Below are positions 1-3,989 of a stretch of 64,000 bases of DNA, piece after piece. The translations under genes and the position numbers were made by a program. The stretch is from Bacteroidota bacterium. GTDB lineage: Bacteria; Bacteroidota; Ignavibacteria; Ignavibacteriales; SURF-24. The stretch spans positions 62,001 through 126,000 of the forward strand of contig JAUZPB010000001.1 in NCBI GenBank assembly GCA_030706145.1. The letters run 5' to 3'. Under the pieces are notes generated by a model. It made no database searches, was not told the DNA's origin, and worked only from the letters and a program-made list of their open reading frames with translations. Each line of letters starts with the position of its first letter. Position 1 is the first letter of the stretch.

Positions 1-1287
1 GAGTTAATTGCAGTAGAAAGTGGTAATACTACAGACAGGTTTTATGGAATTGCAATCGACATAGGCACGACAACAATTGCAGCAAAACTCTTAAATTTGA
101 ACAATGGTAAAACTGAGGCTATTACATCTGCCCTAAACAGTCAGCACATATATGGAGCAGATGTCATTTCGAGAGTAAATTTCATTATTGAAAATAAAGA
201 TGGTCTTGAAAGGCTTCACGAGATCATAATAAATCAGATTAACCATCTAATTTGCATACTTTGCAATTTAGCCCAGATCGAACCCTTTGACATATATAAG
301 ATCGTCATTGCAGGCAATACGATAATGCAGCATATAACGTTAAAGCTAGATCCAAGAAATCTTGCCTTCAGCCCATATACGCCTGTGATGCAAGGGCCAT
401 TAAGTCTAGAAGCAAAATCATTAAAGATAGAACTTAATCCATCTGCAATATTATATTCGATTCCAAGCCTGGGAGGTTTTGTTGGAAGTGATATAACCTC
501 AGTTTTAACTATACTAGATCTTGATGAAAGCAATACGCCAAAACTTGTCATAGATATTGGGACAAATGGTGAAGTTGTACTTGGTTCCAAAGAAAGAATA
601 CTCTGCGCATCAGCTCCTGCCGGACCAGCTTGGGAAGGGGCTTGCATAACCTGCGGTATGCGTGCAAGCGAAGGAGCAATTGAAGCAGTATTGCTTAAAG
701 AGGGTGATATTGAGTTTAAGACAATTGGAGATGTTGCACCCAAAGGCATTTGTGGCAGCGGAATAATAGACCTGATAACAAAACTACTTCATTGTGGAAT
801 AGTAGACAATTGGGGAAGAATACTTTCATCTGAAGAGTTACCAATTAAGACCAGCAACAAACTTAAAAACCGCATAAAGAAAAGCAGTTGCAATCTTTAC
901 GAAATTGATCTTATTGAGGGCAAGATAATTCTTTCTCAGCAAGATATACGAGAGATTCAACTTGCAAAGGCTGCAATTTCATCTACTATTGAAATTCTAA
1001 TGAAGGAGTTAAATATTGGTAAAAATGAAATCTCAGAGGTATATATTGCAGGAGCCTTTGGGAATCATTTGAATAGTGAAGATGCAATAGAACTTGGCCT
1101 TATTCCCAGGATCAGTCAAGAGAAAATTAACTTTATAGGTAATGCTGCTTTATCCGGAGCAGAGGCAGTACTATTATCTTCTGCAATAAGACAAAAAGCA
1201 GAACACCTATCAAAACTAATCGAATATGTTGAACTTTCAGGAAGAGAAGATTTTCAGGAGATCTTTATTAATTCGATGTTTTTTTAA
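1..1287 (+). CDS. DUF4445/RACo-like corrinoid activator, 5'-truncated by window start
   Basis: C-terminal part of an ATP-dependent reductive activator of corrinoid proteins (RACo/RamA class). The frame is open from base 1, so the gene begins outside the window; an in-frame ATG at 97 lies inside the conserved fold and is not the true start. Visible ASKHA motifs are DIGTTT (codons 20-25), DIGTNGEV (phosphate 2), the DUF4445 signature around SAPAGPAWEG, and IAGAFGN near the C-terminus. Family members normally carry an N-terminal 2Fe-2S domain, which would lie upstream. The next two genes encode methionine synthase-type domains, so reactivation of a cob(II)alamin methyltransferase is the likely role (inference). 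Confidence 0.85.
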   Translation, partial: ELIAVESGNTTDRFYGIAIDIGTTTIAAKLLNLNNGKTEAITSALNSQHIYGADVISRVNFIIENKDGLERLHEIIINQINHLICILCNLAQIEPFDIYKIVIAGNTIMQHITLKLDPRNLAFSPYTPVMQGPLSLEAKSLKIELNPSAILYSIPSLGGFVGSDITSVLTILDLDESNTPKLVIDIGTNGEVVLGSKERILCASAPAGPAWEGACITCGMRASEGAIEAVLLKEGDIEFKTIGDVAPKGICGSGIIDLITKLLHCGIVDNWGRILSSEELPIKTSNKLKNRIKKSSCNLYEIDLIEGKIILSQQDIREIQLAKAAISSTIEILMKELNIGKNEISEVYIAGAFGNHLNSEDAIELGLIPRISQEKINFIGNAALSGAEAVLLSSAIRQKAEHLSKLIEYVELSGREDFQEIFINSMFF

Positions 1288-1366
1288 TAAGTTTGAAAGT
1301 ATAGCAAATCATCTTTCAAAATCTTGTTTTCAAGAAATTATTGTTCCCTATTAAAAATATTTATAA

Positions 1367-2017
1367 ATGCATATATTAACATACAAGCCCGAGGATATTC
1401 CATTTCATTTAAGTTCGTTTGGTAAGTTTCTACGCACAGGCAGAAATTTTGAGAACCTAGAGCCTCATCTTGGCATGTGCCAGGCATTATATAGGAAGTA
1501 CATTCACCTTATCACCCCCAGGATTATATTTACCACATGTAAAATAACAAACATAGATCATGCTCTTATGCGAATAGATCTTGCAGGTAATATTTCATTT
1601 AAGGGTAAAGGTATCTATAAGCTTTTACGAGGATCCGAAAGTGTAATTGCATATTGTTTTACCCTTGGCCCTGCATTAGATGAAGAGATCTCTAAGGTGC
1701 AGAAAAGTAGCATTTATGAAGCATTTATATTAGATGCAATAGCTTCCACAATCATATCCGGAATTCAGGACCTATTCATAGAAGAAGTTGAAAAACTCCC
1801 GGAAGCAGGAAATACGTCTGTTACAAAGAGATTCTCACCTGGTTATGCAGGTTGGGAGCTTAAAGAACAAAGGCAATTATATGAACTTTTAGAGCCAGGG
1901 ACCATAGGTGTTGTTTTGACAGAAGATCATGTTTTGCTTCCTACAAAATCTGTTACAGGCGTCTATGGTATTTACAAGTCAAATATAGACTCGCCTTGGC
2001 AGTCTTTTATTATGTGA
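1367..2017 (+). CDS. Free-standing methionine synthase activation domain protein
   Basis: 216 residues resembling the C-terminal AdoMet-binding activation domain of cobalamin-dependent methionine synthase (MetH). The hallmark is the block SPGYAGWELKEQRQLYELL followed by LTEDHVLLPTKSVTGVYG, which matches the SPGY...RKSVSGIYG pattern of the family. In full-length MetH this module is about 330 residues and fused to the cobalamin domain; here it is alone and short, as in many anaerobes. It sits 79 bp after the DUF4445 activator and 185 bp before a homocysteine methyltransferase. No SD sequence is evident before the ATG. It may serve as a docking or reactivation partner of a separate corrinoid protein rather than as a reductive methylation domain. 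Confidence 0.82.
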   Translation: MHILTYKPEDIPFHLSSFGKFLRTGRNFENLEPHLGMCQALYRKYIHLITPRIIFTTCKITNIDHALMRIDLAGNISFKGKGIYKLLRGSESVIAYCFTLGPALDEEISKVQKSSIYEAFILDAIASTIISGIQDLFIEEVEKLPEAGNTSVTKRFSPGYAGWELKEQRQLYELLEPGTIGVVLTEDHVLLPTKSVTGVYGIYKSNIDSPWQSFIM

Positions 2018-2202
2018 AGATTTTTCATAATTTATGCTTTGAATTTTAGGGAAGTAATCCTTATAATTTTTAATAAAAGTCTTTCCCGAAACATACATGA
2101 TTTTGTGCAAATAGAAGAATTGCTTATAGATAGCATAATCTATTACAAAACTTTTTCCTTAAAGGATAATCCAAGCCATTTCAAAATAAAACAAAGTATT
2201 AT

Positions 2203-3102
2203 ATGAAAACTAATATCTTACAACAGCTTAATTCAGGCATAATACTGCTTTCAGATGGAGCTATGGGCACAGAGCTACAGAAACGGGGATTCACTAGTGG
2301 TGTATGTCCCGAAGAGCTAAACTTTACAGAGCCAGAATTAATAGGATCTATACACAAAGATTATTTTGAAGCTGGAAGTGATCTTGTAGAAACGAACTCT
2401 TTCGGAGCTAACAGGATACGACTTTCACTTCATCAGATGGAAGACCGGGTTGAGGATTTTGCAAAGAGATCGGCTGAACTTGCACGCTCTGTTTGTCCAA
2501 AGGGAAAGTACGTTGCCGGATCAATTGGGCCCACAGGAGAAGTACTTGAACCTTTAGGGACACTTACACTTTCAGATGCCTATGACGCTTTTGCACAGCA
2601 GGCAAAAGCCCTCTCATTAGGAGGAGTAGACATACTGTTTATAGAAACAATGATGTCAATTGAAGAAGCCGAAACGGCAGTTAGGGCTGCAAAAGATAAA
2701 ACAAATCTTCCTGTAGCTGCAACAATGACTTTTGAGGTAAGTCCCACAGGTATAAGGACAATGTGGGGAGTTGACGTAAAAACAGCAGTGGAAAGATTAA
2801 GTCAGGCAGGAGCCGACATAATTGGATCCAACTGTGGGCGTGGCTTTGATGAAATGATCGAAGTTATAAAAGAGATGCGTCCATTAACTCAAAAGCCAAT
2901 CCTTGCACAAGCTAACGCTGGAATTCCAGAGTGGATAAATGGGCAGAGTGTTTACAATGAGACCCCAGAGGTAATTCTGCCAAAGGCTGAGACTCTACTA
3001 AAATTAGGCGTAAATATAATTGGAGGCTGCTGTGGTACAGGACCGGAACATATAAGAGCCATTCGAAAACTTGTCCTGGAGTTTAATACAAGCAAAGTCT
3101 AA
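2203..3102 (+). CDS. Homocysteine S-methyltransferase domain protein
   Basis: A 299-residue single-domain homocysteine S-methyltransferase of the MetH N-terminal / betaine-homocysteine methyltransferase family. It should transfer a methyl group to homocysteine, giving methionine, in the cytoplasm. The three zinc cysteines are visible: C211 in GSNCG and C276-C277 in GGCCGTG. The N-terminal DGAMGTEL and the segment ETNSFGANR are also typical. No folate-binding or cobalamin-binding domain is fused, and none is encoded elsewhere in the window. With the two preceding genes this suggests a methionine synthase split into separate polypeptides. The methyl donor cannot be read from this sequence. Confidence 0.88.
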   Translation: MKTNILQQLNSGIILLSDGAMGTELQKRGFTSGVCPEELNFTEPELIGSIHKDYFEAGSDLVETNSFGANRIRLSLHQMEDRVEDFAKRSAELARSVCPKGKYVAGSIGPTGEVLEPLGTLTLSDAYDAFAQQAKALSLGGVDILFIETMMSIEEAETAVRAAKDKTNLPVAATMTFEVSPTGIRTMWGVDVKTAVERLSQAGADIIGSNCGRGFDEMIEVIKEMRPLTQKPILAQANAGIPEWINGQSVYNETPEVILPKAETLLKLGVNIIGGCCGTGPEHIRAIRKLVLEFNTSKV

Positions 3103-3215: not shown

Positions 3216-3989
3216 TTGAAGACAAAACTAGATATTGCAAAGAACTGGCTTCCAAGATATACCGGAACACAAATAGATGAGTTCGGAGATTATCTTTTAC
3301 TTACAAACTTTCACAACTATGTGACCAAATTTGCCGAGGAGTTCAACTGCGAGATCAAAGGCATAGGGCGGCCTATGCAAACTGCAACGAACAACAATGG
3401 TCTAACCATTGTCAACTTCGGAATTGGTTCTCCAAATGCTGCTACAATAATGGATCTGCTGGTTGCAAGACAACCTAAAGGTGTGCTATTTCTAGGTAAA
3501 TGTGGTGGAATAAAGCATTCGACAGAAATCGGGCATTTTATTCTCCCGATTGCAGCTATAAGAGGAGAAGGAACCTCTTTAGATTATTTACCTGCTGAAG
3601 TACCGGCGCTGCCATCATTTAAGCTTCATAAATTCATTTCTGATAAAATAATTGAGCATAAGCAGGAGTATCGTACAGGAGTCATCTATACGACAAACAG
3701 GCGTGTTTGGGAATGGGATGATGATTTCAAGAACTACCTTCGTAAACTTTCTGTAATAGGAATTGACATGGAGACAGCGACAATTTTTATTACTGGTCAC
3801 GTAAATACAATTGCCCGTGGAGCGCTTCTTCTAGTCTCAGATATGCCAATGATACCAGAGGGGATCAAGACAGAAGAATCAGACAAAAGAGTAAATGAAG
3901 CATTTGTAAATCTTCATCTTCAGATCGGTATAGAAGCAATGACTGAGATAGGGATAAAAGGAGAGCAGATCAAGCACTTCCAGTACTAA
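3216..3989 (+). CDS. amn: AMP nucleosidase
   Basis: 257 residues of the nucleoside phosphorylase fold, closest in pattern to the short Bacteroidota AMP nucleosidase, which hydrolyses AMP to adenine and ribose 5-phosphate. Recognisable segments are NWLPRYTG near the N-terminus, the phosphate/ribose loop FGIGSPNAAT, GKCGGIKH, and the purine-site IDMETATIF. The start is TTG at 3216, supported by an AAAGGA Shine-Dalgarno ending 6 bases upstream; no ATG fits better. The E. coli Amn is much longer because it carries an extra regulatory domain absent here. The stop codon lies inside the first unit of a 13-bp tandem repeat. Confidence 0.85.
   Translation: MKTKLDIAKNWLPRYTGTQIDEFGDYLLLTNFHNYVTKFAEEFNCEIKGIGRPMQTATNNNGLTIVNFGIGSPNAATIMDLLVARQPKGVLFLGKCGGIKHSTEIGHFILPIAAIRGEGTSLDYLPAEVPALPSFKLHKFISDKIIEHKQEYRTGVIYTTNRRVWEWDDDFKNYLRKLSVIGIDMETATIFITGHVNTIARGALLLVSDMPMIPEGIKTEESDKRVNEAFVNLHLQIGIEAMTEIGIKGEQIKHFQY

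Follow-up and report, generated by a model that had tools for sequence, protein, structure and literature searches.

Why would a bacterium keep, side by side, a RACo-type reductive activator of corrinoid proteins, a stand-alone activation domain of the methionine synthase (MetH) type (ACT) and a stand-alone homocysteine S-methyltransferase (HMT), and which corrinoid protein and methyl donor would they serve? These three genes open the window, by which we mean the whole stretch of 64,000 nucleotides that was analysed (G000:C1:62001-126000), taken from a draft genome of 5.3 Mb in the order Ignavibacteriales. Our answer, held with moderate confidence, is a folate-independent corrinoid methyl-transfer system of which the trio forms the accepting and repairing half; a UroD-family methyltransferase and a free corrinoid protein (CORR) encoded on another contig, C131, would supply it with the methyl group.

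Three single-domain proteins at the window edge

The three genes are open frames on the plus strand where the sequence-only reading had placed them, and its view of them as a RACo-type activator, a stand-alone activation domain and a stand-alone homocysteine methyltransferase was borne out by Pfam and by matches to the structures 3zyy, 1j6r and 1q7m (Table 1). The linker, middle and C-terminal domains of RACo were all matched in Pfam (PF14574 at 264 bits), and the whole gene adds an N-terminal CxxxxxCxxC ferredoxin motif (CGGIGKCGKC) that marks a 2Fe-2S domain. The protein aligns with the solved RACo 3zyy over residues 9-631 (E 6.9e-100). With the 2Fe-2S N terminus and the linker, middle and C-terminal ASKHA domains all present, it falls within the RACo/RACE family, and by family it would be ATP-dependent.

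Table 1. Positions of the genes discussed, in window numbering unless a contig is named
Feature	Position	Strand	Basis or remark
RACo-type corrinoid reductive activator, 3' part (last 428 aa)	1..1287	+	open frame, Pfam
Whole RACo gene, 632 aa	G000:C1:61389-63287	+	start 612 bases upstream of window edge
ACT, stand-alone MetH-type activation (AdoMet-binding) domain protein, 216 aa	1367..2017	+	Pfam, AlphaFold, RxxxGY
HMT, stand-alone homocysteine S-methyltransferase, 299 aa	2203..3102	+	PF02574, zinc-site motifs
AMP nucleosidase	3216..3989	+	PRK07115, 379 bits vs cut-off 264
UroD-family methyltransferase	C131:764-1804
CORR, free corrinoid protein	C131:1858-2544
Complete MetH, 1251 aa	C317:7962-11717		2160 bits vs equivalog cut-off 1497

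ACT matches PF02965 only partially, at 26 bits against a cut-off of 25. The best PDB match of its AlphaFold model (pLDDT 91) is TM0269 (1j6r; E 1.7e-14, TM 0.79/0.85), followed by MetH activation domains, and judged by this model the weak Pfam match is genuine. The protein retains the RxxxGY motif, which binds AdoMet in MetH, and fold and motif together place it with the TM0269-type proteins; it lacks the cysteine set of its relatives. The AMP nucleosidase gene that follows HMT also adjoins RACo-ACT-HMT in two other RACo genomes of the same family, and is probably a mere neighbour of the trio.

HMT is covered by PF02574 over the full domain (252 bits) and carries the zinc-site motifs GSNCG and GGCCG, which align with the zinc ligands of Thermotoga maritima MetH (1q7m); Pfam and NCBIfam detected no folate, cobalamin or activation domain in it. 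It is PRK07534-like and reaches the cut-off of none of the named NCBIfam families, so that both acceptor and corrinoid dependence are predictions. One of those families offers a different explanation of the protein, namely, that HMT is a cobalamin-independent betaine:homocysteine methyltransferase whose position beside RACo and ACT is incidental. This family (NF005718) is the second-best NCBIfam match and human BHMT matches HMT as well, but the score of 274 bits lies under the family cut-off of 338, the closest solved relative is the homocysteine domain of T. maritima MetH, and HMT stays linked to ACT and CORR in different families and also in distant Bacteroidota. We consider the betaine explanation unlikely.

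A corrinoid protein and a UroD-family enzyme on a second contig

The corrinoid protein of the proposed transfer system lies on C131, a 5.8-kb contig on which CORR adjoins the UroD gene and which resembles the window in GC and tetranucleotide composition (0.968 versus a median of 0.972). No second free corrinoid protein of the methyltransferase type was found in the window genome, where the remaining B12-binding matches belong to MetH, two MerR/CarH-type regulators and frames that are larger or of the mutase type. Across the order, CORR (at least 190 bits) was present in 24 of 24 genomes with ACT and in none of the 14 ACT-less genomes tested, a co-occurrence without exception over 38 genomes (Fisher p 1e-10, uncorrected for kinship). 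MetH is present in 13 of the same 14 ACT-less relatives. Since these relatives lack CORR yet mostly have MetH, we conclude that ACT goes with the free corrinoid protein.

Gene order points the same way. CORR, ACT, HMT and UroD genes cluster in same-order relatives, where CORR lies within two genes of ACT in 23 of 34 loci and HMT does so in 20 of 34, and the recurrent neighbours are UroD enzymes, not pterin proteins. Orthologs with 62-64% identity to the C131 UroD adjoin CORR-ACT-HMT in three genomes (G020, G006 and G054). Farther away, a distant member of the Bacteroidota (G144, locus L138) has RACo, ACT, CORR and HMT consecutively on one strand, and a Bacteroidetes metagenome-assembled genome (L065) has UroD followed by RACo, ACT, CORR and HMT within about 11 kb, interspersed with other genes. 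Two further loci, L145 and L147, hold an ortholog of the C131 UroD with CORR and a gene for a PhyH-family dioxygenase, and L147 also has a ROK-family gene.

In the window genome itself, RACo-ACT-HMT and CORR-UroD stand on different contigs. RACo is present in 3 of 38 members of the order, all three among the 24 ACT genomes, and always beside ACT, HMT and AMP nucleosidase. The HMTs of RACo operons with a short ACT form one clade (100/100). In the tree of corrinoid proteins, the CORR of the window genome groups with RACo-less Ignavibacteriales clusters and not with the CORRs of RACo operons. Because the clades of HMT and CORR differ, the window genome seems to join the RACo-ACT-HMT of one lineage with the CORR-UroD of another, and because its CORR belongs to a RACo-less clade, the evidence for their partnership there is indirect; we infer that the two loci likely work together. 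G003 (L142) shows the same combination. In G004, RACo-ACT-HMT is present and a C131-type CORR is absent, the only CORR being a more distant one in a sugar locus. This second type of corrinoid protein occurs in a sugar locus of both G003 (L143:7652-8326) and G004 (L144:8220-8894), next to a 402-aa protein without a Pfam match. Both loci include an aldo/keto reductase; in the G004 locus, genes for GH2, a nucleoside hydrolase and a solute-binding protein were checked as well.

The C131 UroD has HTDG where MtaA-type thiol enzymes have an HxC zinc motif, and it scores 48 bits against a cut-off of 235 for the MtaA/CmuA thiol methyltransferases. We therefore rejected its assignment to that family, which has HxC...C; because HTDG replaces HxC, a thiol is not a likely substrate. 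The motif varies among relatives (HxDG, HxCG and HNDA). These observations bear on another possible role, the one proposed for type 1 mlp clusters, in which methylthio or methylseleno compounds are demethylated or salvaged; HMT would then methylate another thiol or run in reverse. In the sections of Kountz and Balskus (2023; PMC10418091) used here, a type 1 cluster has by definition at least Mlp2 and Mlp3 together, and the mlp core resembles our set in having a UroD-family methyltransferase, a corrinoid protein and a RACo/RACE activator and no folate methyltransferase. Here, however, a single UroD without the MtaA-type HxC stands beside CORR on a contig other than that of RACo, on which ground we rejected membership in the type 1 clusters as those sections define them. 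Our set also includes ACT and HMT, whereas those sections list neither an activation-domain gene nor an HMT among the core genes, and the clusters of several relatives sit in sugar-degradation loci. A salvage function of the mlp kind is thus similarly unlikely in our estimate.

An intact methionine synthase elsewhere in the genome

The sequence-only reading had proposed a methionine synthase taken apart into single-domain genes and served by an activator, with the corrinoid and folate genes perhaps upstream of the first base of the window. A corrinoid methyl-transfer system with a RACo-type activator and an HMT survives from that proposal, in line with the conserved linkage to CORR, but the dismantled MetH does not. 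Upstream of the first base we found no corrinoid gene and no pterin gene; the genes before RACo include one for PEPCK and two that were named by eye, for a rhomboid-type protein and a permease. A DUF5020 gene (L009:9167-9841) next to the permease has no relation to the trio. A complete MetH, the very finding that was to count against a split synthase, lies on C317, with homocysteine, pterin, B12 and its own activation domains in one chain. The window genes were accordingly rejected as MetH proper, being single-domain proteins in a genome whose true MetH is on C317. MetH is likewise present in G006, G011, G020, G054 and G002, and 36 of 37 other genomes of the order tested gave a match to the activation domain of the full-length MetH type. 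MetE was absent from the window genome and from all 24 genomes searched, as was the PF01717 domain of the MesA-D type. No stand-alone pterin-binding methyltransferase was found in the window genome, where PF00809 occurs only in dihydropteroate synthase (DHPS, C124) and MetH, and in 10 relatives the pterin-binding domain is likewise confined to DHPS and MetH. Because MetH is intact and pterin domains are limited to these two proteins, the trio does not represent a MetH taken apart, nor is folate its evident methyl donor.

The same results weigh on a split synthase in the proper sense, in which methyltetrahydrofolate would be used as in Phaeobacter inhibens, with the folate step drawn from elsewhere, for instance, the pterin domain of MetH. 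Mutant fitness data from that bacterium showed that a stand-alone HMT, a free corrinoid protein and a DUF4445 activator serve methionine synthesis (Price 2018, PMC5764234). The HMT (PRK07534-like here), the MtbC-like corrinoid protein and the DUF4445/RACo (RamA-like) activator are of the same kind in both. Phaeobacter, however, has a stand-alone pterin-binding protein and neither an intact methionine synthase nor a PF02965 protein (PMC5764234), whereas the window genome has no such pterin protein and does have MetH, a PF02965 protein and a UroD. Given also that UroD enzymes and not pterin proteins recur beside these genes, we regard a folate-fed system as quite improbable. It is still less credible that RACo and ACT mainly reactivate the resident MetH as a backup while HMT is a separate methionine-salvage enzyme: RACo, ACT and HMT lie together and MetH cobalt is known to slip to Co(II), but this MetH carries its own activation domain, and ACT-less relatives without CORR mostly keep a MetH.

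A proposed route from UroD to methionine

We return to the folate-independent transfer system, for which we propose the following course. The C131 UroD would demethylate a methylated compound and place the methyl group on the Co(I) of CORR, from which HMT would pass it to zinc-bound homocysteine, yielding methionine. When the cobalt has slipped to Co(II), RACo would reduce it at the expense of ATP, its 2Fe-2S domain providing the electron, while ACT would dock on CORR and expose the cobalt, possibly also methylating it from AdoMet as in MetH. Homocysteine is the likely acceptor and methionine the likely product; which way the methyl moves and how RACo and ACT share the work are likewise proposals. 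Since MetH is intact, a need for methionine is not by itself a sufficient reason for retaining the set.

TM0269 reactivates the MetH of T. maritima, according to the title of Huang 2007 as cited in PMC7857596, and in the TM0268/TM0269 pair it serves a MetH that lacks an activation domain; ACT of the window has the same fold and RxxxGY but goes with a free corrinoid protein in a genome whose MetH is complete. The published folate-independent (core) methionine synthases MesA-D also draw on a non-folate methyl carrier, with a corrinoid protein in MesA-C (PMC7857596), but they are MetE-type enzymes (COG0620/PF01717), in contrast to the MetH-type PF02574 of HMT. A literature search that reached a minority of subscription journals returned no paper on the combination of RACo, ACT, HMT, CORR and UroD and none on corrinoid-based anaerobic demethylation of O-methyl sugars.

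Cysteines of ACT and the presence of RACo

The cysteines that ACT of the window lacks may bear on the role of RACo. Four of them (in SPGYC and a C-terminal CxxCx4C) are kept in 25 of 25 aligned ACTs, none of which neighbors RACo, and a fifth, in FCG, is kept in at least 90% of those 25; in six short ACTs linked to RACo, all four are missing. We had predicted beforehand that RACo would be found in G144, whose ACT is cysteine-free, and in none of six genomes with the cysteine type. RACo was found in G144 and was missing from five of the six, the remaining one (G277) having it elsewhere in the genome. A perfect split was dropped, as two long ACTs next to RACo keep the CxxCx4C tail and have lost the SPGYC cysteine (SPGYP). 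These two (L140:7662-8921 and L141:8320-9573) are activation-domain proteins of about 420 aa with an extra C-terminal part and an adjoining divergent RACo. The short RACo-linked ACTs form one clade (100/98), and the cysteine pattern amounts to one or two changes on the tree; because so few evolutionary events underlie it, it is a lead and not a statistical test. It may be that a metal- or Fe-S-bearing reductant, the cysteine-type ACT, was exchanged for RACo.

Methyl donors and sugar loci of relatives

The surroundings of ACT in relatives offer candidates for the methyl donor. Five glucuronoxylan loci of same-order relatives (L048, L051, L052, L056 and L149) combine CORR, ACT, in part HMT, and a UroD of the HNDA type with GH115, amid GH10, GH43, UxuA or esterase genes. 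GH115 is present in five of nine HNDA loci and in none of 25 other ACT loci (Fisher p 4.5e-4, uncorrected for kinship). Enzymes of family GH115 release (4-O-methyl)glucuronate from xylan, which makes 4-O-methylglucuronate a sensible donor in these five loci and suggests a candidate corrinoid O-demethylation there. In three other loci (L042, L043 and L044), CORR-ACT and several different UroD genes lie beside GH31; L042 also has RbsD/FucU and PfkB genes, and L044 a gene resembling that of D-lyxose isomerase. These loci possibly serve the demethylation of another O-methyl sugar. Further ACT loci contain GH42 and rhamnosidase genes. The pattern fits a modular design in which a constant CORR-ACT-HMT core is combined with exchangeable donor enzymes.

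A wider proposal, which we put forward tentatively and think rather unlikely to hold in full, is that Ignavibacteriales and their relatives have a modular folate-independent route in which different UroDs demethylate methyl ethers of sugars from plants or algae (in the GH115 loci, 4-O-methylglucuronate) and load a single CORR, from which HMT makes methionine, the window lineage having swapped the cysteine-type ACT for a cysteine-free ACT and an ATP-driven RACo. If the system is as proposed, a MetH-type (PF02574) branch would join the folate-independent methionine-forming systems, which have so far been MetE-type. The loci of the relatives would provide candidate enzymes for demethylating O-methyl sugars under anaerobic conditions, and the ACT family would offer a natural comparison of how an oxidized corrinoid is rescued, by an ACT with four conserved cysteines or by the same fold without them beside RACo.
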